64,000 nt of DNA, from positions 992,001-1,056,000 of the forward strand of contig NZ_CP116968.1 of NCBI RefSeq assembly GCF_032051675.1, given 5' to 3'. The translations under genes were made by a program, and so were the position numbers. Below the pieces are notes generated by a model that had not been told where the DNA came from, ran no database searches, and saw only the letters and a program-made list of their open reading frames with translations. This document shows, one piece after another, positions 37,907 through 63,394 of this stretch; the stretch's first letter is position 1; each line of letters starts with the position of its first letter. This DNA is from Candidatus Nitrospira neomarina. Lineage in GTDB: Bacteria > Nitrospirota > Nitrospiria > Nitrospirales > UBA8639.

Positions 37907-38695
37907 TCAGAGGTCCTTGAAATGCGGAGTACGCTTTTCTAAAAAAGCCGCCAGCCCTTCTTGTTTATCTTCGGATTCGCAAAGTTTGCCAAACAAAGTT
38001 GCTTCTACCAGCAATCCCTCCCGAAGTTTCAAATCCGATCCCCTTTGGATGGCCTGAAGGGCTGCTCCAACAGCACTTTGACTTTTTGAGGCAATCCGGC
38101 TGGCGAGTCCGATAGCCTGAGGCATCAAATCTTTATAAGAGAAAACCTCAGATATCAGTCCACATGTTTTGCCATCCTCTGCCGAGAGAGAATCCCCGGT
38201 CAGAATCATTTCAGTAGCTTTCGATTCGCCGATGAGACGAAGCAGGCGTTGGGTCCCGCCGAACCCAGGGATCAGACCAAGATTTACCTCCGGTAGCCCG
38301 AGTTGAATTCCTTCAGCAGCTAATCGGAGATGACAACACAATGCCAATTCCAAGCCTCCGCCGAGGCAGATGCCATTGATGGCTGCGATAATAGGTTTCG
38401 GCGAAGTCGCAATTTTATTAAAAATTCTTTGGCCGGTGATGGCCAGTTTTTTGCCTTTTGGCCTGGACCCGATTTCTGCCAACATCCGGATATCGGCTCC
38501 TGCAATGAAAAACCGTCCTGTTCCGGTGATGATGATGACCTTGACTTGATCATTCTTGGCCAGATCGTCCAGGGTTGATTCGAGTCCACTAAGCCCTTGG
38601 GGTGTAAGCACATTTGCGGGAGGATGGTTGATCGTCACCGTCGCGACATGATCTGCCACCTGTTCGGTGAGCCATATGCGAGGAGGTGCGCTCAT
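37907..38695 (-). CDS. Enoyl-CoA hydratase/isomerase family (crotonase)
   Basis: About 262 residues. The crotonase pattern is complete: FFIAGADIRML (oxyanion hole), GICLGGGLELALCCHLRLA with the first catalytic Glu, and LGLPEVNLGLIPGFGGTQRL with the second. It should hydrate crotonyl-CoA or a related enoyl-CoA. The ATG at 38695 follows GGAGAC. It lies divergently from the acyl-CoA dehydrogenase; the two supply the middle steps of the butyryl-CoA route proposed for the cluster downstream. Confidence 0.92.
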   Translation of the reverse strand: MSAPPRIWLTEQVADHVATVTINHPPANVLTPQGLSGLESTLDDLAKNDQVKVIIITGTGRFFIAGADIRMLAEIGSRPKGKKLAITGQRIFNKIATSPKPIIAAINGICLGGGLELALCCHLRLAAEGIQLGLPEVNLGLIPGFGGTQRLLRLIGESKATEMILTGDSLSAEDGKTCGLISEVFSYKDLMPQAIGLASRIASKSQSAVGAALQAIQRGSDLKLREGLLVEATLFGKLCESEDKQEGLAAFLEKRTPHFKDL

Positions 38696-38773
38696 GGTCT
38701 TGTCTCCTCTGGAGAGTCGTGCATCCTTGGCCTGCATGTCTTAGCCGAATCCGTGATGCATGGGGCCACACTT

Positions 38774-38959: not shown

Positions 38960-40945
38960 ATGTCCCAGCTTTTCAAAGGCATGGAGCGAATAGAAGAAGC
39001 GCGCCAGGAAGTGGCCGGAGAGAGTTTTATGGCGGGCCTGTTTATGGGAAATCCGGACTTCAACCTGCTGTTTCCGCCGGAAGAGCCAGATGAAGAAAAG
39101 CAAATCGGGGAAGAATATTGCCAGAAAATTGAAGAATTTCTGAAGCAGCATGTGGATCCGGATGATATCGAACGAACCGCTAAAATCCCGGAGCATGTGC
39201 TCAAGGGCCTGCTGGACCTTGGGGCATTCGGGATGAAAATACCCAAGGAATACGGCGGGCTGGGATTCTCGTATACGAACTACGGGCGGGTGCTGATGCT
39301 GATGGCCAGCTGGAGTAATATCCTGGCACTTACAGTTGCGGTGCCTCAGTCGATCGGGATCGCCATGCCGATTCTTCTGTTCGGAAACGAGGATCAGAAA
39401 AAGGCCTTTCTCCCGCGGGTGGCGAGAAAGGAAATCTCGGCTTTTGCGCTCACGGAACCGGACACAGGATCGGATGCGGCCAATATTCAAACAAATGCCG
39501 TCCTAAATGCATTGGGCACACATTTTGTGGTCAACGGCGAAAAACTCTGGTGCACCAATGGCTCCCTCGCCAGCCTAATAACACTGGTGGCCCGCGTGCC
39601 GGCAAAACGGATATTCCTGGATGGGAAAACCAAATGGGTCCCCGTGAGCGAAGGCAAGGGGGCAGAGGCTTCTGTCCACACGGCGTTCATCCTGGACATG
39701 TCCAGCCCGGGGGTGAAGATTCAGCAACGATGTCAATTTGAAGGATGTCGGGGCATTGAAAACGCCCATATGACATTTACCGACGTGCAAATTCCAGTGG
39801 AAAACCTCATTGGAGAAATCGGGAAAGGCTTGAAATATGCGTTGACCATTCTGAACGTCGGGCGGGCAATCAGTATTCCGGCTGTGTGTTTGGGGATGGC
39901 CAAGCAGGCTTGGCAACCCACGTTGGATCGGGCAAATTCACGCGTGACCTTTCAGCAGCCGCTCAGCCGGCGGCAAACCCAAATGAGGCGCGTAGGCCAG
40001 ATGGCTGCGGATCTTTTTGCCGTCGAGGCCCTGTCCTGGCTGGTGTGGCGTATGGCCGATCAACATGCGTATGACATTCGTATTGAAGCCGCCATCGCCA
40101 AAATTGCGTGCTCAGAAAAGGCGATCAATTTTCTTAAAGGTGCGCAAACAATCTTTGGAGGAATGGGATACGAAAAGGCCGATTCCAAGCGGGTACGGAG
40201 AGAGCCGGCCTTCGGGATTGAACAATTGGTTCGGGATATCGAAATGTATCGTATCGGGGAGGGAGCCACGGATATTCTGCGACCCTTTGTGGCCCGTGAA
40301 GCCCTGAACCCGCATTTGGAACAAGCCAGGAATTATCTGGATGCAAAAGGCAAATCTCTGGAACGCATCCGTGAAGGGATGCAGGTCGCGCAATGGTATC
40401 TTCCCCGATACCTTGATCTGTGGAAACGGAAACCACTCCCTTCCCGTCCAGCGTTAGATCATCCCAAAGTCCGCAAGCACCTTACGTATGTCGAACGGGC
40501 AAGCCGCCGTCTGGCCAGAGCCATTTTCTACATTCTGGCGATTCACCAGGAAGGGATTCGTGATGATCAGGGCAGGCAAAATAGAATTGAATCGGTGGGG
40601 GAAGATATCTTGATCATTGCGGCCACGGCGTTATGGGCTGAACGGCAGTATAGCCGGGAGGGGGATCCCCGTGTATGGGGCCTGGCCGATGAGGTGTTTC
40701 ATGCGGCGCGTGAGCGGATTGACCGGATGATTCCGGAAATCATCCACAATGACGATCATGTCACGGCCAACGTCGGAAAACGGGCATTTCTCGGTCAATA
40801 TCCGATGCTGAATCATGGCATCATTTACCGGGACCTTTTCGACTATATCCCGAAGGGGCCAGCCGGAACTTTGAAGGAGAAAGGATTATATGAAAAAACC
40901 AATCAGAAGGATGAGGTTTTCACGATGCTGACCGATTCGGGATAG
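38960..40945 (+). CDS. Acyl-CoA dehydrogenase
   Basis: 661 residues, long-form (VLCAD/FadE-like) with a C-terminal helical extension. Motifs: FALTEPDTGSDAANIQTNA (FAD/substrate loop), KLWCTNGSLASLI, and the catalytic region IEMYRIGEGATDILRPFV with the Glu that abstracts the alpha proton. It oxidises an acyl-CoA to the enoyl-CoA, passing electrons to ETF; chain-length specificity cannot be read directly. The ATG is preceded by a perfect AAGGAGGT. Its pairing with the divergent crotonase suggests the butyryl-CoA to crotonyl-CoA step. Confidence 0.93.
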   Translation: MSQLFKGMERIEEARQEVAGESFMAGLFMGNPDFNLLFPPEEPDEEKQIGEEYCQKIEEFLKQHVDPDDIERTAKIPEHVLKGLLDLGAFGMKIPKEYGGLGFSYTNYGRVLMLMASWSNILALTVAVPQSIGIAMPILLFGNEDQKKAFLPRVARKEISAFALTEPDTGSDAANIQTNAVLNALGTHFVVNGEKLWCTNGSLASLITLVARVPAKRIFLDGKTKWVPVSEGKGAEASVHTAFILDMSSPGVKIQQRCQFEGCRGIENAHMTFTDVQIPVENLIGEIGKGLKYALTILNVGRAISIPAVCLGMAKQAWQPTLDRANSRVTFQQPLSRRQTQMRRVGQMAADLFAVEALSWLVWRMADQHAYDIRIEAAIAKIACSEKAINFLKGAQTIFGGMGYEKADSKRVRREPAFGIEQLVRDIEMYRIGEGATDILRPFVAREALNPHLEQARNYLDAKGKSLERIREGMQVAQWYLPRYLDLWKRKPLPSRPALDHPKVRKHLTYVERASRRLARAIFYILAIHQEGIRDDQGRQNRIESVGEDILIIAATALWAERQYSREGDPRVWGLADEVFHAARERIDRMIPEIIHNDDHVTANVGKRAFLGQYPMLNHGIIYRDLFDYIPKGPAGTLKEKGLYEKTNQKDEVFTMLTDSG

Positions 40946-47836: not shown

Positions 47837-49039
47837 TCACGGTCCGATCGCCTTGGTTTCTTCCAGGTGTTTCTTCAGGTATTCCATAAACGGGGTGCCG
47901 CCGGTGCCTACGGAGGTGGGATTAGTGGATTGTTTCTCGCTTTGCTGATGAATATAGGTCGCGGCATAGTCCAGATGTGTGGCCCGAAACCGTGCCAGAA
48001 GTTGTACACATTCGTGATAGGCCTGCCATAGGGCGGGGGTGCGGGATTTGTGGTCCATACTATATCCGGACAGCAAGGGACGGCCGGCATGGTCCTGTTG
48101 ATGTTCCAATCTTTCGAGAAAAGCGCGGTGGGCAGGCGGCATGTACTGGCGCATCTCGGCGAGATACACGGTTAAGGGATCTTCCGCGTGTGTAATGCCC
48201 AGTGCGGCATCCAGTGCAGGAATGATTGAGCTTTGGGCACCCGTTTCTCCTCTGAAGTATTGTGGTTCCTCCCGGTACTCTTCAACACTCTCATATACGA
48301 GTCCATTGGGAAGGGCCGGATTGTTTTTCCAGCCGTGAATAAACGGTCTCACGCGGTGATAATACATATAGGGATCACACCGCTCGGGCATGCGATCCAG
48401 CGTTAGGCACATGCCTTCTATCGTCGAAGCCAAAGTCATGAGTGCTTTGGTCACCTCATCGGCATGATCCCGTCCCGCAGCTTCCTGCGCGCGAAGAATA
48501 GCGGCCATCGCAGGTCCTGCCTTCGCTTCAATGTCCACGTGGACGGCCACGAACCACTCTTCATCCAATCCACCCAGAAAGTTTTGCAGCAATACAACAT
48601 TATCGAGTTCGATGGGGCGTTTAGGATCGAGACTACGCCAGTTGTCCAACGCATAGGAGGCATACGACAAAACGGGAGGTCGGCCTAACCGGCGTGACAC
48701 CTCACACCAGGGCACGGCCAGGTTGGACGGGAGACGGTCGAGGGGGTGGTCCGGATTTTCCCAAATGTAGCCATGCGCAGCAAAAGAAAGAATGCGGTTG
48801 GCATATCGGTAGGTGGCGAGGGTCCAGTCGTCTTTTTTGGCGGGAATGAGGTCCTGCATCGTGTGGATGGTGTTTCGGAGTTGGCGGGCCGCCAGTAGCT
48901 TGGGTAGTTGCCGGCCGAGCCATTCAAGCTCAGGACAGAGTGAGCAGGAAGAAAGAGGGTCGGGGACAGGCAAAAATCCGCGCTCTTCGGACATCTCAAA
49001 ATGTGAGAACGAATGTCGTTGAAGTGGTGCAGGTAGCAT
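47837..49039 (-). CDS. Indoleamine 2,3-dioxygenase-like heme protein
   Basis: 400 residues, the usual IDO length. Signature stretches are RGFLPVPDP near the start, RPFIHGWKNNPALPNGLVYE, YFRGETGAQSSIIPALDAALGI, and FRATHLDYAATYI, whose His should be the proximal heme ligand, then TSVGTGGTPFMEYL. IDO oxidises tryptophan to N-formylkynurenine. IDO is less usual than TDO in bacteria. It is the last minus-strand gene of the catabolic cluster, 450 bp after meaB, so cotranscription is doubtful. Other kynurenine pathway genes are absent. Confidence 0.88.
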   Translation of the reverse strand: MLPAPLQRHSFSHFEMSEERGFLPVPDPLSSCSLCPELEWLGRQLPKLLAARQLRNTIHTMQDLIPAKKDDWTLATYRYANRILSFAAHGYIWENPDHPLDRLPSNLAVPWCEVSRRLGRPPVLSYASYALDNWRSLDPKRPIELDNVVLLQNFLGGLDEEWFVAVHVDIEAKAGPAMAAILRAQEAAGRDHADEVTKALMTLASTIEGMCLTLDRMPERCDPYMYYHRVRPFIHGWKNNPALPNGLVYESVEEYREEPQYFRGETGAQSSIIPALDAALGITHAEDPLTVYLAEMRQYMPPAHRAFLERLEHQQDHAGRPLLSGYSMDHKSRTPALWQAYHECVQLLARFRATHLDYAATYIHQQSEKQSTNPTSVGTGGTPFMEYLKKHLEETKAIGP

Positions 49040-49491: not shown

Positions 49492-50268
49492 TTACCCGGA
49501 AACGGGTGCCTCAATTTCAAGGGACTGTTGGTGGCGGGTAATGGCCTCTACCAACGATGGAATACCTTCTCCGGTTGTGGCGGTCACCAGCAACACCTGT
49601 GGCACCCATTCCCGCAACGACTGAAGGGTTTCGTGCGCGCCGGCATGATCGGCCTTATTGACGACGACGATATGGGCCACTTCCAGGATTCCAGCTTTCA
49701 TGGCCTGCACGTCATCACCAAGACCGGGAGCGACGACATCAACTACCGTTTGGGCTATCTGGGCAATTTCACCCTCTTCCTGTCCCATCCCGATGGTTTC
49801 AATCAACACGACATCAAACCCGGCCGCATCGAGAACGTGAATGGCGTCCTGTGTCGCCAGGGCCAGGCCACCCCGGTGTCCTCTCGTGCCCATGCTCCGG
49901 ATGTAGACACGATCATCCAACGAATGGTGCTGCATGCGAATGCGATCGCCCAGAATGGCGCCGCCGGTTAACGAACTGCTGATATCCACGGCCAGCACAC
50001 CGACCTTTTTCCCTTGTGAGCGATACGCCGTAATCAATTGATCGATCACGGTACTTTTTCCCGCGCCGGGATACCCGGTGATCCCGATAATGCGTGCATG
50101 GCCGGAGAAAGGCTCGAGCCCCTCCAGGACCGCTATTCTTTCCGGCCCATCGGATTCCAACAAGCTAATGGCACGGGAAATTGCTCTGATGTTTCCGGTT
50201 CGGACTTCCTCGATTACGGAGGGAATCGTTAAGAATTTATGTGAGGCCGAGGGGTTCGAACCAGACAT
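49492..50268 (-). CDS. meaB: MeaB/ArgK-type G-protein chaperone of a B12-dependent mutase
   Basis: 258 residues. GTPase motifs: Walker A GYPGAGKS near residue 66, the Mg-binding DISSSLTGGAILGDRIRM, ETIGMGQEE (Walker B/switch) and VVNKAD (the NKxD base motif). MeaB loads or protects cobalamin in acyl-CoA mutases. It is shorter than typical MeaB (~320-330), missing most of the C-terminal dimerisation arm. It overlaps the OB-fold gene by 32 bp and is in the same cluster as both mutase subunits, fitting its role. Confidence 0.9.
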   Translation of the reverse strand: MSGSNPSASHKFLTIPSVIEEVRTGNIRAISRAISLLESDGPERIAVLEGLEPFSGHARIIGITGYPGAGKSTVIDQLITAYRSQGKKVGVLAVDISSSLTGGAILGDRIRMQHHSLDDRVYIRSMGTRGHRGGLALATQDAIHVLDAAGFDVVLIETIGMGQEEGEIAQIAQTVVDVVAPGLGDDVQAMKAGILEVAHIVVVNKADHAGAHETLQSLREWVPQVLLVTATTGEGIPSLVEAITRHQQSLEIEAPVSG

Positions 50269-50734
50269 CGGTCACCTTAAATGTTGGAGCTTTGGCGAAA
50301 CGCGGACGGATCGGTAGCCCAATGTGAACGTGATCAGGTGAAATATTTTTCAGACGGGTGAGAAAGAGGGTGTTCACATTTTTAAATTCCACCAGAGTCA
50401 GGATAAACGGGGTTTCTTTGAGAAAACTTTCGCTACCATAATGACAGACTGTGAAGGTATGGACGCATCCGGTCAGTGGAAGCTTTTCCCATGTGGTGGC
50501 TGCCCCACATTCCATGCAATGAGATCGGGGTGTGGCGTACATATATTGACAGCGTGTACACCGTGATCCCAACAGATCTCCTTTACTCAATCCAACAAAA
50601 AAGGGAGAATCCTGGGCATAACTGTGGCGGTAATCAATGTCGTAGTGGTCCTGGATGATTAATGGATCGACCCCAAAGAGATTGACCCCTTTGTGTTCCG
50701 GCAAGGTTTGTTCTGAGGTTTCGAAGTGTTTCAT
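50237..50734 (-). CDS. DUF35-type Zn-ribbon/OB-fold protein (thiolase partner)
   Basis: About 165 residues. A zinc ribbon (LLGSRCTRCQYMYATPRSHCMECGAA, cysteines CX2C and CX2C) is followed by an OB-fold with FTVCHYGSESF and LTRLKNISP. Members pair with thiolase-like or HMG-CoA synthase enzymes and pass CoA intermediates in a channel. It starts 8 bp after the stop of the thiolase-like gene, supporting a complex. The ATG at 50734 is used; its 3' end overlaps meaB. Confidence 0.85.
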   Translation of the reverse strand: MKHFETSEQTLPEHKGVNLFGVDPLIIQDHYDIDYRHSYAQDSPFFVGLSKGDLLGSRCTRCQYMYATPRSHCMECGAATTWEKLPLTGCVHTFTVCHYGSESFLKETPFILTLVEFKNVNTLFLTRLKNISPDHVHIGLPIRPRFAKAPTFKVTDVWFEPLGLT

Positions 50735-50741
50735 GATGTGG

Positions 50742-52025
50742 TTATGTCCTCTCCAAGATCGACACCGTGATAGAGGTCCCGGTGCCCGCATGACTATGGA
50801 TGAGTCCACGTCGAGGATCGCGAAGTTGTAATGCCGGACTGCCTAAATGCCTCTCGATCGTGTCTTGTAATTGCCAAAATGCAAAGACGGCCTGCATCAG
50901 ACCTGTGGCTCCGATCGGATGGCCGCAGGCCAAGAGCCCTCCGGATGGATTCACGGGGAGTCGTCCTTGGTCCGGTAACGGCAAGCCATACTCAATCCCC
51001 GGCATAAACGGGGTACCCTTTTCAATAAAACTGCCGCCTTCCCCATATTTACACAACCCAAGATCTTCATAGGATTGAATTTCAGAGGAGGTATAGGCAT
51101 CGTGAAGTTCGACAAAGCTTAATTCTTCCAGTGGATTCCGGATGCCGGCCATTTCGTAGGCCAGTTTTGCTGCCATACGCCCCCCGCGATAGGAATGCAC
51201 CCCGGGGTATTTGAGCCGGGCATAATCGGATTCCTGCTCGTGCGGAAGCAGCGGAACTTTTCCATGCGGCCGGTCAGCCATGCGCATGGCATCTGACCCT
51301 GAGCCTATGCCGGTGATGTGCACCGGCCGGTCACAGACCTGTTCCGCAATGGTTTCGTCCGCCAGAATGCAGACGGCTGCTCCATCGGACATGGTGCAGA
51401 TATCTTCCATGGTCAATGGGGTGGCCACCATGGGCGATTCCCGAACCTGTTTGACGGTGAGCCGTTTCGCTTTTTGCGCATAGGGATTGTACAGAGCATT
51501 CAGATGATTTTTGACGGAGACCATGGCCATCTGTTCAACCGTGGTGCCAAATTCATGCATATGGCGATTGACCATCATGGCATAGTACCCGCTGTAAAAC
51601 CCTCCAACCGGAAAGTCGAAATTCGTATCGGAAGCCAACGCAATAAATTCGTTCCCTTTCCAGGTGTTGACCCGGGACATGGTTTCAAACCCGAAGGCGA
51701 CACAACAATTCATCCGCTCCGAAGCAATCGCTTCCCAAGCCGATTGGAAACACAACCCTCCCGTGGCCCCGCCCCCTTCGACGCGTTTGGAGGGTTTGGG
51801 ACATAGGCCCAGATAATCGTGTGCCATGCTGCCGGCCATCGATTGGCGGGTGAAATGATCTGAAAAATAGGAGCCGACCCCTCCATCGATCATGTCTTTC
51901 GATAATCCGGGTACGTCCTGGAGGGCGGCGTCATAGGCTTCTTTGACCATCAGACGAAAATCTTTTTCCGGATGGGCTTTGGCGAATTTTGTGATCCCGC
52001 CGCTGATCATATAGACGGGTCTCAT
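50742..52025 (-). CDS. Thiolase-superfamily protein without the usual nucleophilic Cys
   Basis: 427 residues with SCP2-thiolase-like motifs: [39 protein letters not shown] and [11 protein letters not shown]. Where catalytic thiolases have (N/E)xxC[AS]SG, this one reads [11 protein letters not shown] (about residues 82-92), so a Gly takes the Cys place; Cys92 is out of register. It might act in carbon-carbon bond cleavage (as in the Ltp2-type aldolases that also use a DUF35 partner), not as a true acetyl-CoA thiolase. A canonical thiolase is separately encoded in the cluster. ATGA overlap with icmB. Confidence 0.8.
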
Positions 52026-52423
52026 CGGGGCAGTCCTTTCACGAATTCCACAATGCGTGACATCGAGGTGCCGGGAGGGAACAGGGCCCGCACACCGGTT
52101 TCCATTAGAGGGCCGACATCATCAGAGGGGATAATGCCTCCACCGAAGACGGCAATATCCTCGGCATGATGCGTTTTCAGTAATTCCAGGACCCGTGGAA
52201 ACAGAGAGGTATGGGCACCGGAATGAATGCTGAGGCCTATCGCGTTCACGTCCTCTTGAATGGCGATATTGACGACCTGCTCGGGGGTTTGGTGCAACCC
52301 GGTATAAATGACCTCCACGCCGGAGTCTCGCAGGGCCCGGGCTACCAGTTTCACGCCGCGGTCGTGGCCATCCAAACCAACCTTTCCGATCAGGACTCGA
52401 ATGGGCGTCGTTGCTGTGGTCAT
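52022..52423 (-). CDS. icmB: B12-dependent acyl-CoA mutase, small (cobalamin-binding) subunit
   Basis: 133 residues, the usual size of a small mutase subunit (IcmB ~136). It carries [21 protein letters not shown], whose DXHXXG His is the lower cobalt ligand, then [18 protein letters not shown] and VFGGGIIP. It binds adenosylcobalamin with the large subunit encoded at 53418-55085. ATGA overlaps tie it to the MBL gene before it and the thiolase-like gene after it. Named for isobutyryl-CoA mutase because of the large subunit's active-site residues; MCM small subunit is the alternative. Confidence 0.88.
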
Positions 52424-53274
52424 GCTGTTCTCGCTTCCTCTGCAGGTTTCAAGAAATATTTGCCTTCCGGGTCTTTGTGGACGTACCCCATCTCAATCCG
52501 GGGGTCATGTTCGAAAATCAGGAGCCATCCTTCCTCGTAGGCTTGATCGAGAATCCATCGTTTGGTTTCCAGCGTCTGTAGCGGAAAGAGGTCATAGCCC
52601 ATAATATAGGGGAGGGGCAGGTGAGAGACCGTGGGAATACAATCACCTAAAAAGAAGGCCGTGTGTCCTTCGGATTCAATCTTGACGCTTTGGTGGTATT
52701 TGGTATGGCCGGGGGTGACCACCATTGAGACACCGGGAAGCCACTCGGTCGTGCCTGTGACAAACTCACATTGGTGATGTTCCAGAATAGGAATGAAATT
52801 TTCCTGACGGTAACTGGCCTTGGTCCGTTCATTCGCCTTGATGGCATCTTCAAATTCTCCGCGTTGCACCAGATAGCGTGCCATCGGAAACGTCGGGATC
52901 GTCCGTCCTTTTTCATCACACCGCGTGTTGCCTCCGGCATGATCGAAATGAAGATGGGTATTGATCACCATATCGATATCCTTCGGGGCAAGGCGGTAGT
53001 GGTGTAAGGCATCATGAAGCGAAGAGGATTGATCCACGGCAAACATTCGATGAAATTTTTTGTCTTGTTTTGAGCCCAGTCCCGTATCGACGAGGATGTT
53101 CTTCCCATGTGCCTGAATCAGCAGACAGGTCAAGCTGAGCGGGATGCGGTGGTGATCGTCGGCCGGACAACATTTCTCCCAGATTACCCTGGGAACCACC
53201 CCGAACATCGCTCCGCCGTCAAGCCGGAACCGGCCGTCTGTCACAGGATAAATGTTAAATTGTCCAAGTTTCAC
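52420..53274 (-). CDS. Metallo-beta-lactamase-fold hydrolase
   Basis: 284 residues with the binuclear metal motif [13 protein letters not shown] near residue 105, VDTGLG before it, and TPGHTKYHQ and GDCIPT after it. Members hydrolyse lactones or thioesters; here, encoded between the two mutase subunits and overlapping icmB by ATGA, it may hydrolyse an acyl-CoA (thioesterase-like glyoxalase II type) or a lactone. The substrate is unknown. Confidence 0.85.
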
Positions 53275-53417: not shown

Positions 53418-55085
53418 TTATAAGACAACCGGTTCACGATAGGTTCCAAAGACTCCCTTTAAGGCTCCACATATTTCTCCCAATGTGGCCCTGGCTTTGA
53501 CGGCGTGCATCAGGTGTGGCAACAGATTTTCGCCGGATTGTGCGAACCATTGAATTTCGTGAAGCGCTTCAGCCACTTTCTTGGGGTCCCGGTTGGCGCG
53601 AAACGAACGTAAACGTTCCCGCTGATACTGTTCGACTTCCTTTCCGATTCGCAGGGTGGGAATGGTGTACTGCTCCGACTCAACGTACTCATTGACCCCG
53701 ACGATGATACGTTCTTTCCGTTCGATTTCCTCCTGGTAGTGCTGGGACGCTTCCAGAATCTCTCGTTGTGGGAACCCTCGTTCGATGGCGGCCAACATGC
53801 CTCCCATGGCATCCAGCTTGCGAAAGTATTCGCGGGCACCTTCTTCCATCCGGTTGGTGAGGTGCTCAATAAAGTAGGAACCGGCCAGAGGATCAACCGT
53901 GTTGGTGACCCCGCTTTCATGAGCAATGATTTGTTGGGTACGTAACGCCAGCGTCACAGCCTCCTGAGTGGGCAGAGACAGCGTCTCATCCATGGAATTG
54001 GTATGCAGTGATTGCGTGCCGCCGAGCACGGCTGCCAGAGCCTGAAGGGTTGTGCGCACCACATTGTTCATGGGTTGTTGCGCCATGAGGGAACAGCCTG
54101 CTGTCTGGGCATGGAAGCGGAGCTGGAACGAGCGTGGATTGTTGGGGTGGTATCGGTCTTTCATCTCCTGCGCCCACACGCGTCGTGCCGCTCGAAACTT
54201 GGCAATTTCCTCAAAAAAGTCGTTATGCGAATTAAAGAAAAAGGACAGTTGTGGGGCAAAGGCGTCAATCGGCAATCCTGCCTGAACGGCGGCTTCGACA
54301 TAGGTCAGCCCGTTATACAGGGTAAAGGCCAGTTCCTGCACGGCGGTGGATCCGGCTTCCCGGATGTGATACCCGCTAATGCTGATGGGATGCCATTTCG
54401 GCACGTGTTCACTGCAGTAGCCGATGGTGTCCGTGATCAACCGCATGTGGGGTGCAGGGGGGAACAACCATTCTTTTTGTGCGATATATTCTTTGAGGAT
54501 ATCGTTTTGCAGGGTGCCATTGAGCCGAGTCAGCGGGATGCCTTGCCGTTCAGCCAGAGTGAGATACATGGCGAATATCACGGCGGCCGGGCCATTGATC
54601 GTCATGGAGACCGATACCCGATTCAAAGGGATTCCGTCGAAGAGTGTGGCCATGTCTTCCAAAGACGAAATTGCGACCCCACAATAGCCTACCTCCCCAA
54701 GAGCCTGCGGATCATCTGAATCCAGGCCCATGAGGGTCGGCATATCAAACGCGACGCTCAGACCGGTTTGTCCCTGATCCAGGAGATATTTGAAACGGGC
54801 GTTGGTGTCATGAGCCGTCCCGAACCCTGCGAATTGCCGCATCGTCCATAGCCGACTGCGGTACATCGTCTGGTGAATCCCACGTGTGTAAGGAAAGTCT
54901 CCAGGATGCCCGAGGTCACGTTCAGGATCCCAATCTCTGAGGTCTTCCTGCGTATATTGTTCGGCAATCGGCAGTCCGGACAAGGCCGTACAGGGCGTCT
55001 TCCGGTCCTGAGGATAATGAGAGGCCGGACGTTTTTCAGCCGAATCCTTCTGATGGACCACCGGTGAATCGTGAGCAATCTTCAT
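53418..55085 (-). CDS. icmA: B12-dependent acyl-CoA mutase, large subunit, isobutyryl-CoA mutase-type active site
   Basis: 555 residues; a barrel mutase large subunit ([59 protein letters not shown]). The substrate residues differ from methylmalonyl-CoA mutase: P. shermanii Tyr89 aligns with Phe85 and Arg207 with Gln203; the spacing (118 residues) and His244/His240 match exactly. IcmA has this Phe/Gln pair. So isobutyryl-CoA to n-butyryl-CoA is predicted. Lacks the C-terminal B12 domain, supplied by icmB. The ATG at 55085 follows AGGA; the longer 605-aa reading lacks support. Confidence 0.88.
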
Positions 55086-55108: not shown

Positions 55109-55972
55109 TCAAGGTTGATAGGTGTAAAATCCTCTTCCTGACTTTCGACCCAACCAACCCGCCTCGACATATTTTCGAAGAAGCGGACACGGGCGAAACT
55201 TTTGATCGCCGAATTCTTGATATAAAATTTCGCAAATGTTGAGCACGGTATCCAAACCGATACGATCGGCTAAGGCCAGTGGGCCTACAGGGTGGTTGGT
55301 GCCATAAGTCATGGCCTTGTCGATCATGTCGACGGTCGCGATGCCTTCGGCTAAGGCAAAAATGGCTTCATTGACCATCGGCATGAGCAGGCGATTGACA
55401 ATGAAACCCGGAGAATCTTTGGATTCCACCACAACTTTTCCCATGCGGTCGGCAAGTCCGGCGAGAAGCGAGATGGTCTCATCGCTGGTTCGCAAACCTC
55501 GAATGAGTTCGACCAATTTCATGACTGGGACCGGATTCATAAAATGCATGCCGGCGACCTGAGCGTCTCGCCCCGACATGGCCCCCAGTTTTGTGATGGA
55601 TATCGAGGAGGTATTGCTGGCCAGGATCACCTCCGGTTTGCAGATTGCGCCAAGCTCTTGGAACAGCTCGCATTTCATTTCAAAATTTTCGGGGGCGGCT
55701 TCCAGGATCAGGTGACGATCAGTCATATCCCCGAGGGATTGGGTGGTCCGGATTCGTTTTAAGGCCGCTTCGCCCTCCGAAGCCGGGATGATGCCATCCT
55801 GAATTTGTTTGGCGAGTCCCTTGTGAATGCGTTCAAGAGCGGCTTCCAGGGATCCGGTGTGGATATCGTAGAGGAAGACCTCACAGCCTGCGAGCGCAGA
55901 TACGAACGCAATGCCCGCACCCATTTGGCCGGCTCCTACGACACCAATGGTTTGTATGGCCTGTGATGGCAT
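55109..55972 (-). CDS. hbd: 3-hydroxybutyryl-CoA dehydrogenase
   Basis: 287 residues; NAD-binding [14 protein letters not shown] at the N-terminus, [29 protein letters not shown] (catalytic His and Glu), [18 protein letters not shown], and [15 protein letters not shown]. It oxidises (S)-3-hydroxybutyryl-CoA to acetoacetyl-CoA, the step before thiolase, whose gene lies 56 bp upstream on the same strand. Strict homologue of PaaH/Hbd; not fused to an enoyl-CoA hydratase. Confidence 0.95.
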
Positions 55973-56028: not shown

Positions 56029-57219
56029 CTAGGGCATGCGTTCGATCACGACAGCCAGGGCCTCGCCTCCACCAATACAGAGACTGGCAAGCCCCAAACG
56101 GCCACCTCTGGCTTCCAGTGCGTAGAGCAGGGTGGTCATCATCCGTGCGCCGGTAGCTCCGATTGGATGGCCAAGCGCCACGGCACCTCCGTTCACATTG
56201 ACTTTTGCCGGGTCCAGGTTGAGTTCCCGGTTAATGGCGAGAGACACCGAGCTAAAGGCTTCATTGATTTCAAAGAGATCAATCTGCTCGATGGTCAGAC
56301 CTGTCTGCTTCAGAACTTTTTGGATGGCGTGAACCGGGGCGATGGTAAACCACTCGGGTGCTAATGCGGCGCCGGCATACCCGATGATTCGTGCCAACGG
56401 TTTGATGCCATGGCGTTCGGCCTCTCTTTCTTCCATCAGGACAAGGGCTGCCGCACCGTCATTGCAAGATGGGGAATTGCCGACCGTCAGCATGCCGTCT
56501 TCTTTAAACACGGGTTTCAAACTGGACAGTTTTTCAAGATTGACACGATTCGGTTCCTCATCGTCGGTCACGAGAATCGGCCCGCCTTTTTTTTGAGGCA
56601 CTTCGACGGGTACGATTTCCTGTTTGAAGGCACCGGTCGCGATGGCCATGCGGGCCCGGCGATAGCTTTCAATCGTAAAGTCATCAAGGGCCTTCCGGCT
56701 GAGTTGATACTTGGACGCACAGAGTTCCCCACCCTGACCCATGTGAAAATCGTTATAGACGTCCCAGAGGCCATCCTTGATCAGGCTATCGACCAGTTCC
56801 CCATGACCAAGCCGATAGCCTTGTCTGGCCCTGGTCAAGAGATACGGGGCGCCGGTCATGCTTTCCATGCCTCCGGCAACCAGAATGCGGGCTTCTCCCA
56901 ATTTAATGGCCTGAGTGGCCATAATGATGGCCATAAGACTGGACCCGCAGACCTTGTTGATGGTGGTTGCGCCCACCGAGTCGGGCAGGCCGGCTCCAAG
57001 CGCGGCTTGCCTTGCGGGTGCCTGTCCGAGTCCGGCAGCCAACACGCAACCCATATAGACCTCGTCCACCAACGCCCCTGACAGGTGAACCCGATGTAAG
57101 CTTTCGGCAATGGCCAGACTTCCAAGTTTCGTAGCGGGAACCGGGCTGAAGACGCCCTGAAAGCTTCCCATGGGAGTGCGGACCGCGCTCACAATGACCC
57201 CGTATTTGGTCTCAGTCAT
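56029..57219 (-). CDS. atoB: Acetyl-CoA acetyltransferase (thiolase II)
   Basis: About 396 residues with canonical catalytic residues: TINKVCGSSLMAI (nucleophile Cys), [18 protein letters not shown] (His), and ASLCIGGGEALA (second Cys). It cleaves acetoacetyl-CoA to two acetyl-CoA. Its ATG overlaps the stop of the E2 gene (ATGA), and GGAGG lies eight bases upstream, so translation is coupled. The ATG at 57219 is chosen over one 15 bp earlier for that reason. Confidence 0.95.
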   Translation of the reverse strand: MTETKYGVIVSAVRTPMGSFQGVFSPVPATKLGSLAIAESLHRVHLSGALVDEVYMGCVLAAGLGQAPARQAALGAGLPDSVGATTINKVCGSSLMAIIMATQAIKLGEARILVAGGMESMTGAPYLLTRARQGYRLGHGELVDSLIKDGLWDVYNDFHMGQGGELCASKYQLSRKALDDFTIESYRRARMAIATGAFKQEIVPVEVPQKKGGPILVTDDEEPNRVNLEKLSSLKPVFKEDGMLTVGNSPSCNDGAAALVLMEEREAERHGIKPLARIIGYAGAALAPEWFTIAPVHAIQKVLKQTGLTIEQIDLFEINEAFSSVSLAINRELNLDPAKVNVNGGAVALGHPIGATGARMMTTLLYALEARGGRLGLASLCIGGGEALAVVIERMP

Positions 57220-58391
57220 GAGGTGACCTCCCATGCCGGTTGTTCCAGGACAGATTTCACCATGAGCATAAATTGATCGGCTGTGGCTCCATCGATGACC
57301 CGATGATCAAAGGCAAGGCTCAAGTAGGCCATGGAGCGAATTTCAATGGACTCGTTCACGACTACTGCTCGCCGCTGAACAGCGCCAACGCCAAGAATGG
57401 CGATTTGCGGTTGGTTGATGATCGGGGTGCTGAAGAGGCTGCCGGTCCCTCCATGATTGGTGATGGTAAATGTCCCTCCTTGGACTTCCTCGGGCTGGAG
57501 TTGTTTGCTTCGTGCCCGTTGAGACAGATCGGCGACTTCCGTACCCAATTGCCGAAGATCTTTTTGATCGGCATGCTTGATGACTGGAACCAATAATCCT
57601 TCTTCTACGGCGACAGCTATACCAATATGAACGGCATGCTTAATGATGAGACCTTTGGCAGACCAGGAGGAATTGAGAATCGGAAAGGCGTGAATCCCCT
57701 GCGTGACCGCTTTGATCACAAAAGGCAGATAGGTCAGATGCAACTCCTGTCTGGTGTGTTCGACTGTTGTGAAGTCGGCTTCAAAGAACGTCACCACGTG
57801 GGCTGCGGTCTGTCGACTCTTGACCATGCGTTCCGCAATTGTTCGTCGCATGGAGCTCAGCGGAATTACCTCTTCTTCAGGGGAAGAGGTCACTGATGCG
57901 GGCTGTCCCTTTAGCGACTCGCCGGACTCTTTTCCGGCCAGACCTTGTTTGTCCAGAAATTCCAGAATGTCCTTTTTGGTAATCCGTCCATTCATGCCTG
58001 TTCCGGTGATGAGGCTGAGGTCCACCTGGTGCTTCGCGGCAAGGTCTCGAACAGCCGGTGAGAGGAGGTCAGGGGATCCTGAGATTGTTGAGTGGCCGTG
58101 ACCGGACGATACCGGAATTGTGCTTGTCGCGGAATCACCGTTTCCGGATTCGGAATGGTAATCGAGTCGCGCAAGAAGGGTGCCCACCGGGACCGTTTCC
58201 CCTTCCTGAATCAAAATCTCGGTTAAGGCTCCGGTCGCCGGGGAAGGAATATCCAATGCGACTTTATCGGTTTCCACCTCTAACAGGGAATCATCTTTTT
58301 TTACCTGGGCCCCCAGCGGAACGAGCCATTTCACGATGGTACCTTCGGCAATGCTTTCACCTAACTGCGGCATGACGATGTCGGTGGCCAT
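57216..58391 (-). CDS. 2-oxoacid dehydrogenase E2 (dihydrolipoamide acyltransferase)
   Basis: 391 residues. One lipoyl domain (about 1-78, lipoyl Lys in VETDKVALDIP), a linker, a peripheral subunit-binding domain (about 110-145, LLSPAVRDLAAKHQVDLSLITGTGMNGRITKKDIL) and a catalytic domain with FDHRVIDGATADQF (His-Asp catalytic pair). It forms the core of the complex with the two E1 subunits. E3 is not encoded here and must come from elsewhere. BCKDH is favoured over pyruvate dehydrogenase because of the IcmA neighbour, an inference. Confidence 0.93.
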   Translation of the reverse strand: MATDIVMPQLGESIAEGTIVKWLVPLGAQVKKDDSLLEVETDKVALDIPSPATGALTEILIQEGETVPVGTLLARLDYHSESGNGDSATSTIPVSSGHGHSTISGSPDLLSPAVRDLAAKHQVDLSLITGTGMNGRITKKDILEFLDKQGLAGKESGESLKGQPASVTSSPEEEVIPLSSMRRTIAERMVKSRQTAAHVVTFFEADFTTVEHTRQELHLTYLPFVIKAVTQGIHAFPILNSSWSAKGLIIKHAVHIGIAVAVEEGLLVPVIKHADQKDLRQLGTEVADLSQRARSKQLQPEEVQGGTFTITNHGGTGSLFSTPIINQPQIAILGVGAVQRRAVVVNESIEIRSMAYLSLAFDHRVIDGATADQFMLMVKSVLEQPAWEVTS

Positions 58392-58410: not shown

Positions 58411-59403
58411 TCAATAGGCCGCCAATTGGCGGGCGGCGGTGATGACGTCATGAGCGTTCGGAAGAAAAAAGTCCTCCAGCGGGGGACTATAGGGCACGGG
58501 AATATCGGGGGCTGCGATCCGCATAATCGGCGCATCAAGTGCGTTGAAGCATTCTTCAGCCAGGATCGCAGCAATTTCACCACCGATTCCTCCGGTCTTC
58601 GTATCTTCGTGGAGAATAATCACTTTCCCCGTTTTTCGAACCGAGTCTTTGACGGTGTCGGTATCAAGAGGGCTCAGGGTGCGAAGATCCACGACTTCCA
58701 TGTCGATCCCTTCCTGATCCAAGGCCTCGGCTGCCTCTAATGCCACGTGGACCATGGCTCCATAGGTGATGACGGAGATCTCGCTTCCTGTCCGTTTGAT
58801 CTCGGCTTCCCCGATCGGGACGATATACTCTTCAGCAGGAAGCACCTCCTTCACGCGCCGGTACAAAAATTTATGTTCAAAATAAATGACGGGGTTATGA
58901 TCCCGGATCGCGGCCTTCAACAATCCTTTGGCGTCATAAGCAGTTGAGGGCGCCACCAGTTTCAACCCGGGGGTATGAAAGAACCAGGCTTCCGGGCACA
59001 CGGAATGGAAGGGCCCTCCATGAGTCCCTCCCCCGAAGGGTGCGCGGATGACCAGAGGCACCTCTGCTCCCCAGCGATAGTGATTCTTGGCGGCCATCTC
59101 GGTAATTTGATCGAACGCACAGGAAATGAAATCCGCAAATTGCATTTCAACCACGGGTCTCATGCCCATCATCGCCGCTCCAATTGCGGCGCCGACAATT
59201 CCGGATTCCGCCAGAGGGGTGTCCAGCACTCTCCATTCACCATACTTATCTTGAAACCCTTCCGTGACACGAAATGCCCCGCCGTAAGGGCCGATATCTT
59301 CTCCCATCAGGAAGACCCGTTCATCCTGGCTCATTTCTTCATCAAGGGCTTGGGAAATGGCTTCCAGATAGGTCACTTCATGTGTGATAGCGGATGTGGT
59401 CAT
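58411..59403 (-). CDS. 2-oxoacid dehydrogenase E1 beta subunit
   Basis: 330 residues. Motifs: VFLMGEDIGPYGGAFRVTEG, DTPLAESGIVGAAIGAAMMGMRPVVEMQFADF, and SVCPEAWFFHTPGLKLVAPSTAYDAKGLL, ending in FDAPIMR-like NALDAPIMRIAAPDIPVPYSPPLE. It holds the pyrimidine of ThDP with E1 alpha. It begins ATGA-overlapping with E1 alpha. No visible residue fixes the 2-oxoacid specificity. Confidence 0.95.
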   Translation of the reverse strand: MTTSAITHEVTYLEAISQALDEEMSQDERVFLMGEDIGPYGGAFRVTEGFQDKYGEWRVLDTPLAESGIVGAAIGAAMMGMRPVVEMQFADFISCAFDQITEMAAKNHYRWGAEVPLVIRAPFGGGTHGGPFHSVCPEAWFFHTPGLKLVAPSTAYDAKGLLKAAIRDHNPVIYFEHKFLYRRVKEVLPAEEYIVPIGEAEIKRTGSEISVITYGAMVHVALEAAEALDQEGIDMEVVDLRTLSPLDTDTVKDSVRKTGKVIILHEDTKTGGIGGEIAAILAEECFNALDAPIMRIAAPDIPVPYSPPLEDFFLPNAHDVITAARQLAAY

Positions 59404-60383
59404 ATCAGTACCTCCACGGGATTAGCCGCAAAGACGCCTTCCAACGCTTCTGAACCCTCCGGAAGAGGGCTTTGTTCCGCGAACTCCAAGGCGGATTCAA
59501 TTTCCTTTTCAACCCTCATATGAATTTCCTGAAATTCGGGTTGACCGGCATACCCCAATTCTTTCAGCCGACGTTCCGCCTTCAGAATGGGATCTTTCTT
59601 CTTCCACTCCTCCAAGAGTTCTCGAGGCACATATTTGGCGGAATCATGCTCCGAATGCCCGTGCATACGCATGGTTTTGCATTCGATAAAGGTGGGACCC
59701 CCTCCGTTCCTGGCACGTTGAAAGGCCCGTTGTGCCGTCAGAAAGACGGAGGCGACATCGTTTCCGTCCACAATTTCACCGGGTATGGCATAGGCTTTTG
59801 CTCGTTCGACGACATCTTTGATGGCCATCTGATGGTGAAGAGGGGTGGAGTAGGCGTACTGGTTGTTATTGCAAAAGAACACCACCGGCAGCCGGCGAAC
59901 GGACGCGAAGTTCAACGCTTCATGAAAATCTCCCCGACTGGTCCCTCCATCTCCTGTATTGGCGGCGACAATACGGGATTCACCGCGCAGCTTAAACGCC
60001 AGAGCCACTCCGGTCGCAACGGGAAGATTGTCAGCCAGATGACTGACAAAGGCGATGATGCCACGTTTCAGGTCGCCCATATGCACGTTGCCGTCCTTTC
60101 CTTTGGTGGGTCCGGTGCGTTTGCCAAGATATTGCGCTAAGACTTCACCCGGCGTAATGCCTCTGACTAAGAACGCGCCCATATCCCGGTGGAAGGGGGC
60201 GATAATGTCATCGGTCTGAAGGGCGGAAGCATAACCCACCGAAATCGCCTCCATTCCATGGCTGGTGTATGCACCACCGACGATGCGACCTTGCCGATAC
60301 AAAGTGGTCACTCGTTCCTCCAACGCTCTGGTGAGTTTAAGGAAATAATAGAGGTGGAGAAATTCAGATTGTGAAATCTCCAT
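59400..60383 (-). CDS. 2-oxoacid dehydrogenase E1 alpha subunit
   Basis: About 327 residues with ThDP and Mg motif GDGGTSRGDFHEALNFASVRRLPVVFFCNNNQYAYSTP (GDG...NN type) and the phosphorylation-loop-like RMHGHSEHDSAKYV. It decarboxylates the 2-oxoacid and acylates lipoyl E2. The ATG at 60383 has AGGAGA eight bases upstream and is preferred to one at 60407. First of the dehydrogenase genes; the acyl-CoA synthetase gene ends about 100 bp before it. Confidence 0.95.
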   Translation of the reverse strand: MEISQSEFLHLYYFLKLTRALEERVTTLYRQGRIVGGAYTSHGMEAISVGYASALQTDDIIAPFHRDMGAFLVRGITPGEVLAQYLGKRTGPTKGKDGNVHMGDLKRGIIAFVSHLADNLPVATGVALAFKLRGESRIVAANTGDGGTSRGDFHEALNFASVRRLPVVFFCNNNQYAYSTPLHHQMAIKDVVERAKAYAIPGEIVDGNDVASVFLTAQRAFQRARNGGGPTFIECKTMRMHGHSEHDSAKYVPRELLEEWKKKDPILKAERRLKELGYAGQPEFQEIHMRVEKEIESALEFAEQSPLPEGSEALEGVFAANPVEVLI

Positions 60384-60486
60384 AACACTCTCCTTTTGTC
60401 TAGACATGAATAGTTATCCTCTTGTTGGTCATTGGGTGTGGTATGGGTGATACGTTATGTCACTCTCCTATTCGCTGACGACCTCC

Positions 60487-62226
60487 TCAAGCCGTCTGAT
60501 GCTTTGGAGTTGAGCCGCGTTGCACAGAGCGGAATTGGACGTCGCAATAGCGTGCCAATGCCGAGCTCAACCTCGCCTTTAACTCCAAACGTTTGGGCTT
60601 CCCCGTTGTCGTATAGGGCACTTCCTGGCCAAACATAAAGACCTTGGGACACTTGGCAAAGGGCAATGTCTTGCGGCACCATGTGACCATTTCATCTTCC
60701 GAAGGTTGCGGCATATGTTCTTTGACCACGAGGTATCCGGCAATTTCTTCTCCGTAGAGACGGTTTTCGAATGAAACGGCCATACCGAATTTGACGGAAG
60801 GGTGTTTTCTGAGTACTTCATCAATTTCCAAGGGTGATATATTCACACCCCCGCGGATGATTAATTCCTTCAGTCGCCCGGATATGAAAAAATACGGGCG
60901 ATCAGCCTGATCACGAACGAAGAACCCCTCATCTCCCGACCGGAACCATCCCCACCGGAAACTTTCCTCATTCGCATCCGGTCGTTTCAAGTAACCTGAA
61001 CACACCGTTTGTCCGCGGATACAAATTTCCCCCCTTTCCATCTCGCCGACCGGTTGTCCCTGGGGATTGAGAATCGCCATGTCGTTGTAAGGAATGGCGA
61101 GGCCAATGGATGGATAGTCATAGTCCGTGAGCCAGTGCCTGTGTTCTTGTGCGGAAAGGTTAACGGGGAGAAAACTGGCATAACACGTGGTTTCAGATAG
61201 TCCGTACCCATGACGAACCGGAGCATGAAATTGATGCTCAAACCGTGACACCGTGTCCTTTAGGAGAGGGCCGGCCCCGCAAATCAATCCTTGAAAATGG
61301 TCAAGCCGGTATTGCCGGTTATCCCGAGCTCCTTCCAGCAGGAACTCCAGAATGGTAGGGACCACGCTCACGCAGGTAACCCCTTCATCCTGGATTCGGT
61401 TCCAAAACGCGGACTGACGAAAACGCCGGTTCAGCACGGACCTGCCCTGTCCGTAAAATGGGGTGAGGAGTGTGACAACAATTCCGTTCACATGATGGAT
61501 CGGCAGCACACACATGAGGCAATGACCTTTTTCCAATCGGTGCCATTTTGCAATGCCGTGGGCATCGACGAGAAGATTTTCAATCGTGAGCACGACTCCT
61601 TTCGGCGGTCCCGTCGTTCCGGAGGTGTAGACAATCAATGCGTCATCCTGGAGAGCAGCTTGATCGAGAGTTCCGTGGTTGTGTGTTTGAGCTGGGCGAG
61701 GTTGACCCATCATGTTCATGAGCGGTGAGGTTCCATTCCCGAGAGAGACGAGATGCCGAAGATGGGGGAGTCGATTCCGGATATCCTGGAGGGCTTCGTA
61801 TTCGGTTCCCCAGCAAAAGGCCACGCAGGCCTCTGAATGTTCCAGAATGTAGGAGCGGCGGTCTTCGGTTTCATTGATATCAATCGGCACCACCACGGCT
61901 CCCAGGACCCAGGCGGCATAATACATCACCACAGTAAAGTCATGATTAAACAGCAGGGTGGCAATGCGATCGCCCCGTTGGACCTCCAGTTGCTCACGCA
62001 GGAAGGTCACGGTTCGATTGACGGCGTTTCCGAATTCCTCATAGGTATAGCTTCGAACCATTCCGGAATCGTCGTAATATGTTAAGTACACCTCTTTCCT
62101 CAGTGCCGGATCGGCCACCCGCTGCTGAAAAAAATTCGCAAACGAAGAATAGGGGATTTCGAGGAGCGGGTTTTCGTTCCGATGGGCCTCTTGAATATGT
62201 TTATTCAAGGAAATCGTTTCAATCAT
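60487..62226 (-). CDS. AMP-forming acyl-CoA synthetase (ANL superfamily)
   Basis: 579 residues. Adenylation signature LIVYTSGTTGPPKGVVLT (about residue 210), HGYGLSETTCYASF, DEGFFVRDQADRPYFFISGRLKELIIRGGVNISPLEID, and the C-terminal catalytic Lys in TTTGKPKRLEL. It activates a carboxylic acid to acyl-CoA. The substrate is unknown; branched or short-chain acids such as isobutyrate would fit the neighbours. GAGGG is nine bases before the ATG. The upstream HDO gene ends 85 bp before. Confidence 0.9.
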   Translation of the reverse strand: MIETISLNKHIQEAHRNENPLLEIPYSSFANFFQQRVADPALRKEVYLTYYDDSGMVRSYTYEEFGNAVNRTVTFLREQLEVQRGDRIATLLFNHDFTVVMYYAAWVLGAVVVPIDINETEDRRSYILEHSEACVAFCWGTEYEALQDIRNRLPHLRHLVSLGNGTSPLMNMMGQPRPAQTHNHGTLDQAALQDDALIVYTSGTTGPPKGVVLTIENLLVDAHGIAKWHRLEKGHCLMCVLPIHHVNGIVVTLLTPFYGQGRSVLNRRFRQSAFWNRIQDEGVTCVSVVPTILEFLLEGARDNRQYRLDHFQGLICGAGPLLKDTVSRFEHQFHAPVRHGYGLSETTCYASFLPVNLSAQEHRHWLTDYDYPSIGLAIPYNDMAILNPQGQPVGEMERGEICIRGQTVCSGYLKRPDANEESFRWGWFRSGDEGFFVRDQADRPYFFISGRLKELIIRGGVNISPLEIDEVLRKHPSVKFGMAVSFENRLYGEEIAGYLVVKEHMPQPSEDEMVTWCRKTLPFAKCPKVFMFGQEVPYTTTGKPKRLELKARLSSALARYCDVQFRSVQRGSTPKHQTA

Positions 62227-63079: not shown

Positions 63080-63394
63080 GGTGGCCTCCTTAATCGGAAC
63101 CTATAAGTAAGTCCAATTCCAGTAGCTTTCTGTGGTGATTGCCAGTCATGAATTAAATGATAAAATGTTATTATCATAATAAAACTTTTATAGATAACAA
63201 GCAATGATTGCATATAGTAAGGATATTGTAGGGACCATTTTAATTGATAATTTAATAAAAGATTGCCAATGATTATTTTTTAATGGTAAGTTATAATTAA
63301 TTTGCTGGCTAAGGCTAATGACAGACCGGACGACACTGAGATTTATGAGGTCTGCAGGAGCCGTTTCATATTCCTGATAGGGAAGGAGAATCCA
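63080..63394. other. AT-rich divergent intergenic region
   Basis: About 315 bp between the HDO and VOC genes, strikingly AT-rich (poly-A/T runs). It must drive both genes. A regulatory inverted repeat is listed separately, and a second short palindrome-like GCAATGATTGC is at about 63202. No clear promoter boxes. Confidence 0.45.
63157..63177. promoter_or_regulatory. Inverted repeat, candidate operator
   Basis: Perfect 7-bp arms ATGATAA (63157-63163) and TTATCAT (63171-63177) separated by seven bases, in the divergent promoter of the HDO and VOC genes. The 24-bp repeat near 38774 has similar TGATAA/TTATCA-type arms, so the same regulator might control both sites; this is a speculation. Confidence 0.4.

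Follow-up and report, generated by a model that had tools for sequence, protein, structure and literature searches.

Described acyl-CoA mutases and the Nitrospira locus

A radical 1,2-shift of a thioester group is the established chemistry of the family of acyl-CoA mutases that depend on adenosylcobalamin (a B12 cofactor), and the described members closest to the genes studied here are isobutyryl-CoA mutase (ICM), 2-hydroxyisobutyryl-CoA mutase (HCM), and methylmalonyl-CoA mutase (MCM). The genes in question are mutL (icmA-like) and mutS (icmB-like), which code for the large and small subunits of such a mutase in Candidatus Nitrospira neomarina. They lie in the 64,000-nucleotide stretch of DNA that was analyzed (the window), which spans positions 992001-1056000 of a single-contig 4.8 Mb genome. 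Residue comparisons and gene content indicate that mutL and mutS probably form a two-subunit adenosylcobalamin-dependent ICM of the IcmA/IcmB type, which would serve the breakdown of valine to acetyl-CoA and bypass methylmalonyl-CoA. This kind of enzyme is already known; the host, a Nitrospira-type nitrite oxidizer, is unexpected. A literature search combining Nitrospira, isobutyryl-CoA, and mutase returned nothing beyond a polymer-degradation review.

The Streptomyces ICM has separate large (IcmA) and small (IcmB) subunits, as mutL and mutS do, and carries Phe80 and Gln198, which are 118 residues apart as are their counterparts in mutL. In contrast to that system, mutL and mutS lie in an apparent branched-chain operon of a nitrite oxidizer, with its own MeaB and with an MBL-fold gene between the subunits. 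The fused isobutyryl-CoA mutase IcmF (4xc6) shares the Phe/Gln pair of mutL, as read from two weak local alignments (23.3 and 20.2 bits) that fall in the correct order, but it is a single chain where Nitrospira has three genes. A search of 195 genomes from the phylum gave no IcmF over cut-off; none of 14 control genomes passed either, so this search had no positive control. HcmAB (4r3u) is the best solved match of both subunits (549.5 bits for mutL) and has the same Gln, but HcmA has Ile where mutL has Phe, and HcmB has Asp where mutS has Gly. MCM (2xij, the mitochondrial enzyme and second-best solved match of mutL, and 1req from P. shermanii) has the fold family, the catalytic His, and the B12 motif in common with mutL and mutS, but it has a Tyr/Arg pair and a B12 domain on the same chain, whereas mutL has Phe/Gln and a separate B12 subunit. 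In MCM, Tyr89 and Arg207 bind the free carboxylate. Tyr-92 and Arg-210 at two specificity sites are described as marking MCM in PMC7238569, which cites Jost et al. for it.

Specificity residues of the large subunit

The initial annotation had read an open reading frame at 53418-55085 with Phe85 and Gln203 118 residues apart and the essential His 37 residues past Gln203, and these positions are correct, the His being His240. Plus-strand frame 1 across the same interval is interrupted by stops, and mutL is the only PF01642 protein of the genome. Residues 61-260 align with HcmA (4r3u) and with mitochondrial MCM without a single gap or insertion, with 116/200 and 102/200 identical positions, respectively. 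The placement of Phe85 in the Tyr89 column and of Gln203 in the Arg207 column, which the annotation had proposed, is therefore firm, and the columns correspond in both comparisons with no sign of the misalignment that would undo it. The Phe85 column holds Tyr in the mitochondrial and P. shermanii MCM and Ile in HcmA (presumably its residue 90), and the Gln203 column holds Arg in MCM and Gln in HcmA. Within the P. shermanii structures, 1req has Tyr in the Tyr89 column and 5req, which we take to be the Y89F mutant of MCM, has Phe.

The two proteins thus combine a PF01642 large subunit and a separate DxHxxG B12 subunit with Phe at the Tyr89 site, Gln at the Arg207 site, and His 37 residues after the Gln, which is the set of features that describes a two-subunit ICM. 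The Tyr89 and Arg207 of MCM are absent. The Ile of the HcmA site is Phe85 in mutL, and Gly118 of mutS occupies the site of an Asp in HcmB (Asp117), where an HCM small subunit would have Asp or, presumably in the Kyrpidia/Rcm type, Val. A fused IcmF was rejected, since the B12, G-protein, and mutase domains that IcmF joins on one chain are encoded by three separate genes. The annotation's interpretation of the Phe/Gln pair as that of ICM and not MCM is supported by the identical pair in IcmF, with one refinement: Gln is also found in HCM, so that, of the pair, it is the Phe that sets mutL apart from HCM.

Distribution of the residue pair

A search of 59 genomes of relatives gave 23 mutase matches, one of which (a 24-bit fragment in G028) was dropped. 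Both Phe and Gln are present in 19 of the remaining 22, which speaks against a chance occurrence. In two others (G004 and G050) a contig end cuts off the Phe site and the Gln alone can be read, and one (G055, 54% identity) has Tyr/Arg and is the only Tyr/Arg relative found in Nitrospirales. The mutase-positive set used below comprises 21 of the 59 genomes, two of them typed by Gln alone. The eight nearest named relatives are metagenome-assembled genomes (MAGs) titled Nitrospirales, Nitrospira, Nitrospiria, or Nitrospirae, with 74-95% identity.

A wider alignment has Phe/Gln in 99 of 108 rows and Tyr/Arg in four, the others being HcmA (Ile/Gln), three gapped rows, and L152; the 108 rows include two references, the window twice (WIN and L001), and one genome twice (L125 and L019). 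Two further Phe/Gln and two further Tyr/Arg proteins were found beyond these rows. The 80-locus wider set is biased to Gln because EYIAQKEW, one of its six search patterns, contains Gln; the 59-genome search is free of this bias. Phe/Gln mutases (L052-L123) occur in MAGs recorded under many phyla, including Bacteroidetes, Chloroflexi, Acidobacteria, and Actinobacteria. In a tree of 106 rows, a single branch with an SH-aLRT support of 97 has all six Tyr/Arg rows to one side, and HcmA joins a Phe/Gln haloarchaeal protein, a join of two long branches that is flagged by a tool warning. L152 (4920-6584) is a mutase relative (35% identity) on a Paraburkholderia plasmid. Its Phe, Gln, and His columns hold Ile, Gly, and Asp, respectively; it seems to lack the usual His, and its own B12 subunit and MeaB adjoin it.

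Operon structure and proposed valine route

Nitrospirales with a Phe/Gln mutase preserve the gene order E1 alpha, E1 beta, E2, thl, HBD, mutL, MBL-fold gene, mutS, a variable slot, and MeaB, wherever contigs reach, and the acyl-CoA synthetase is often near the operon in these relatives (Table 1). The Tyr/Arg locus of G055 has, out of this set, only mutL, mutS, and MeaB. Where contigs cover the place, Nitrospirales operons with a Phe/Gln mutase have the MBL-fold gene between mutL and mutS; in two loci from Chloroflexi (L067 and L072) it adjoins mutS. For the DUF35 gene, the ATG at 50734 was picked by eye as the start; the frame in the open reading frame list begins at a GTG at 50809.

Table 1. 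Genes of the mutase operon and related genes in the window
Feature	Coordinates	Strand	Remarks
crotonase (enoyl-CoA hydratase)	37907..38737	-	only PF00378 protein of the genome
acyl-CoA dehydrogenase	38960..40945	+	661 aa; only PF00441 protein of the genome
meaB, G-protein chaperone for the mutase	49492..50268	-	258 aa; TIGR00750 273.6 bits, cut-off 240.75
DUF35 protein (ChsH2-type Zn ribbon and OB fold), thiL partner	50237..50734	-	PF01796 and PF12172 over cut-off
thiL, thiolase-superfamily protein	50742..52025	-	427 aa; Gly replaces the nucleophile Cys
mutS (icmB-like), B12-binding small subunit	52022..52423	-	133 aa; DxHxxG at residue 18; HcmAB is the best solved match
MBL-fold (YtnP-lactonase-like) hydrolase	52420..53274	-	between the mutase subunits; profile matches
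mutL (icmA-like), acyl-CoA mutase large subunit	53418..55085	-	555 aa from ATG; Phe85, Gln203, His240; sole Pfam domain MM_CoA_mutase
HBD, 3-hydroxybutyryl-CoA dehydrogenase	55109..55972	-	NF005875 320 bits, cut-off 319
thl, acetyl-CoA C-acetyltransferase	56029..57234	-	TIGR01930 455 bits, cut-off 240.55; Cys kept (NKVCGSS)
E2, 2-oxoacid dehydrogenase complex	57216..58391	-	PF00198 over cut-off; no NCBIfam model passed
E1 beta, 2-oxoacid dehydrogenase complex	58411..59403	-	NF006667 (pyruvate dehydrogenase E1 beta) 358.3, cut-off 321
E1 alpha, 2-oxoacid dehydrogenase complex	59400..60407	-	no NCBIfam model passed; nearest T. thermophilus 2-oxo acid dehydrogenase
AMP-forming acyl-CoA synthetase	60487..62226	-	profile match

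In the proposed route, a branched-chain 2-oxoacid dehydrogenase (E1/E2) would convert valine-derived 2-oxoisovalerate to isobutyryl-CoA, and the mutase, with the operon's own MeaB as its loader or chaperone, would rearrange isobutyryl-CoA to butyryl-CoA by the radical shift of the thioester group. Butyryl-CoA would then be carried to two acetyl-CoA by the one acyl-CoA dehydrogenase and one crotonase found in the genome, followed by HBD and the thiolase. We infer the substrate and direction of the mutase and the branched-chain specificity of E1/E2. Isoleucine-derived propionyl-CoA would enter the methylcitrate cycle, whose genes are close by, making methylmalonyl-CoA dispensable.

Gene content of the genome agrees with this route. 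Genes like prpD, prpB, and prpC lie a few kb beyond the window end (prpB at G000:C1:1060270), with the prpB and citrate-synthase-II models over cut-off and prpD below it (best 231 bits). A second prpB-like gene (G000:C1:1142045-1142893) scores 329.7 bits, with a cut-off of 354.4. No methylmalonyl-CoA epimerase in the genome exceeds the TIGR03081 cut-off (best 52.4 bits vs 114.95), and no beta subunit like that of propionyl-CoA carboxylase (PCC) was found in it, PF01039 giving two short matches of 69.5 and 54.4 bits. A protein query for the beta subunit of methylcrotonyl-CoA carboxylase (MCC) had no match in the genome, though the same query found a 34% relative elsewhere (G006). The lack of an epimerase over cut-off and of a PCC-like beta subunit, the methylcitrate genes, and a leucine module that occupies the slot in six related operons all point in the same direction as the Phe/Gln pair, and the leucine module marks the operon as one of branched-chain catabolism. 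Methylcitrate genes in Nitrospira are already known, with separate mention of a methylmalonyl-CoA mutase, mcmA1A2 (PMC12542776).

Across the 59 genomes, prpB over cut-off occurs in 18/21 mutase genomes and 0/38 others, acyl-CoA dehydrogenase in 18/21 and 7/38, and crotonase in 20/21 and 10/38, counts that are not corrected for ancestry. The mutase genomes without prpB over cut-off are G040 (348.7 bits vs 354.4), G050 (a 44-bit end piece and a weaker homolog; genome 88% complete), and G014 (84% complete). Among 54 loci of other phyla that are 10 kb or longer (within L052-L123), the Phe/Gln mutase has a neighbor like the window's acyl-CoA dehydrogenase in 19 and one like its crotonase in 13, a pattern that is no more than suggestive.

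Counterevidence and alternative functions

Several observations weigh against an ICM in a valine pathway. Phe by itself does not define ICM, since 5req carries it too. The model passed by E1 beta is named for pyruvate dehydrogenase, and among solved structures E1 beta scores 331 against one labelled pyruvate dehydrogenase, 322 against a 2-oxo acid dehydrogenase from Thermus, and 284 against the branched-chain enzyme, an ambiguous result that yields no clear branched-chain assignment; neither E1 alpha nor E2 passes any NCBIfam model, and the scores of E1 alpha against solved structures are 182.7 bits for the Thermus enzyme and 160.9 for the next best. The acyl-CoA dehydrogenase and crotonase genes lie outside the operon, about 12-15 kb from mutL, and no acyl-CoA dehydrogenase was found in 3/21 mutase genomes, two of which are 95% and 99% complete. 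Matches to the prpB model occur in three genomes that lack the mutase (G030, G036, and G048), at 293-303 bits, below the cut-off of 354.4 and similar to the second copy in the window's genome (329.7 bits), and common descent could weigh on all of the co-occurrence counts, which are uncorrected for it. Very low expression of the prp genes is reported for N. moscoviensis (PMC12542776), and Nitrospira marina is reported not to grow on tryptone or yeast extract when nitrite is absent (PMC8115632), so that the pathway may have an assimilatory role or see little use.

Three other substrates have to be weighed. An HCM would deliver 3-hydroxybutyryl-CoA directly to HBD and the thiolase, as in acetone and 2-hydroxyisobutyrate breakdown, with no dehydrogenase or hydratase step needed before HBD. 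HcmA is the best solved match and has the same Gln. The operon also encodes HBD, thiolase, acyl-CoA synthetase, and MeaB, and sulfate reducers are described as degrading acetone via a cluster of a thiamine diphosphate enzyme, a mutase, and a dehydrogenase (PMC7888143). We nevertheless consider an HCM improbable, given Phe where HcmA has Ile and Gly where HcmB has Asp, and set it aside because the window has one acyl-CoA dehydrogenase and one crotonase outside the operon, both of which also co-occur with the mutase, and because of the leucine module of the relatives. Automatic annotation would label mutL as MCM, as the initial annotation had foreseen: MM_CoA_mutase (PF01642) and acid_CoA_mut_N both pass, PF01642 and TIGR00641 score far above cut-off, mitochondrial MCM is the second-best solved relative, and two Nitrospira papers use this name. 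The best match to the epimerase model in the genome, though below cut-off, is a VOC gene adjoining the operon (63302-63946), and this VOC protein or another gene may be a divergent epimerase; the VOC protein scores higher with a 4-hydroxyphenylpyruvate dioxygenase model (93.3 bits, also below cut-off) and resembles half of that enzyme. An MCM with an unusual carboxylate-site pair is about as improbable as an HCM, however, as it would have neither Tyr89 nor an Arg for the free carboxylate and would stand in a genome with methylcitrate genes but with no epimerase over cut-off and no PCC-like beta subunit found; moreover, the Tyr/Arg relative G055 has no prpB match, which is a single case.

The residue pair is also compatible with an isovaleryl-CoA/pivalyl-CoA mutase (PCM type), or a dual ICM/PCM enzyme tied to the C5 skeleton of leucine, since IcmF is reported to convert both substrate pairs (PMC10481361), and the six relatives have a leucine module in the operon. 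We rate this as the least probable of the alternatives: no gene was seen that suggests use of pivalyl-CoA, in a judgment made without a search, and valine would be left without the route proposed above, no methylmalonyl branch having been found.

An ICM would change how such genes are named. A mutase of the Nitrospira strains treated in PMC8115632 and PMC12542776 is called methylmalonyl-CoA mutase there, by the papers' own labels, and PMC8115632 names it among three B12-dependent enzymes. If such Nitrospira enzymes are ICMs, part of the B12 demand would be linked to valine use, the methylcitrate cycle would no longer seem to be duplicated by a methylmalonyl route, and Nitrospira-type bacteria would have a concrete, testable pathway for amino-acid use. 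The presence of the pair in many phyla suggests that, well outside Nitrospira, many Phe/Gln mutases may be mislabelled as methylmalonyl enzymes.

A variable slot upstream of meaB

The slot before meaB holds thiL and the DUF35 gene in 11 readable operons, the window included, and genes for an MCC-beta-like subunit, a crotonase, and a 3-hydroxy-3-methylglutaryl-CoA (HMG-CoA) lyase in six related operons; the two modules were never found together at one slot. A comparable gene set for leucine is described in a Pseudomonas cluster (PMC4619459). The two HMG-CoA lyases scanned score 357.8 and 356.9 bits, over a cut-off of 246. The MCC-beta-like subunit passed no NCBIfam model and scores 657-664 against solved MCC beta subunits (8j4z, 3u9r) and M. 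tuberculosis AccD1 but at most 257 against solved PCC beta subunits, except for its top match, 9tps (688.6), which is labelled propionyl-CoA carboxylase.

Among the 21 Phe/Gln genomes, thiL (at least 85% identity) is present in 14, the MCC-beta gene (at least 69%) in five, neither in two (G014 and G019), and both in none, with a chance of zero overlap of 0.001 that is not corrected for ancestry. The 38 other genomes have no thiL, one MCC-beta gene at 56% (G008), and the 34% match in G006. MCC-beta fragments of at most 30% (G020, G030, G050, and G055) and thiL matches below 30% (G021 and G047) were left out of these counts. The distribution of modules on the mutase tree requires four changes (bootstrap 3-4), of which well-supported branches force one, and 84 and 107 of 500 shuffles were as low in change count. 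Repeated module swapping is unsupported, as only one change is forced and shuffles are often as low. Identity of thiL among Nitrospirales relatives is 85-96%, mostly above that of the mutase.

The best solved relative of thiL is an archaeal acetoacetyl-CoA thiolase, 6esq (162.7 bits); 6ok1, which we take to be Ltp2, scores 54 bits. The archaeal Cys85 is Gly in thiL and in 13 aligned ortholog loci (one of them, L043, is the window, and L025 and L044 are one genome, which leaves 11 further genomes), so the Cys expected of a thiolase is missing while both His are kept. One 29% thiL relative, L057, retains the Cys. The 6esq thiolase acts with HMG-CoA synthase and a DUF35 protein, and the steroid aldolases Ltp2 and Sal have the thiolase fold, DUF35 partners, and other catalytic residues (PMC12329534). 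A steroid aldolase of the Ltp2/Sal type was ruled out for thiL, which has HDAY where those enzymes have YDHF or YDCY.

By analogy with Ltp2/Sal-DUF35, the leucine branch in the lineage of the window might dispense with MCC and run through thiL-DUF35, which would cleave 3-hydroxy-3-methylbutyryl-CoA by a retro-aldol reaction to acetone and acetyl-CoA. We put this forward tentatively, as an unlikely but conceivable function, in which the dehydrogenase and crotonase are proposed to supply 3-hydroxy-3-methylbutyryl-CoA. A literature search joining 3-hydroxyisovaleryl-CoA, acetone, and acetyl-CoA found no match. If the proposal is true, thiL-DUF35 and ICM would constitute a branched-chain amino acid route free of biotin and methylmalonyl-CoA, with two exchangeable leucine modules in one slot. 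The exchange of a leucine module for a thiolase/DUF35 pair without the Cys hints at a possible new reaction and is likely the part most surprising to specialists.

Other neighboring genes

The VOC gene is followed by homogentisate-dioxygenase-like and fumarylacetoacetase-like genes (G000:C1:1055970-1058077), all far below cut-offs, and these genes and the VOC gene adjoin the operon in many relatives. A gene for a CADD/BesC-like protein (62312-63079; TIGR04305 45 bits, cut-off 200) is often found by the acyl-CoA synthetase or VOC gene in relatives. At the other end, an indoleamine 2,3-dioxygenase family protein (47837-49039; PF01231, 317 bits) adjoins the operon, as it does in G018 and G033. 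The acyl-CoA dehydrogenase gene is adjoined by a sigma-54 activator with a PAS domain (41274-43364), a possible regulator.
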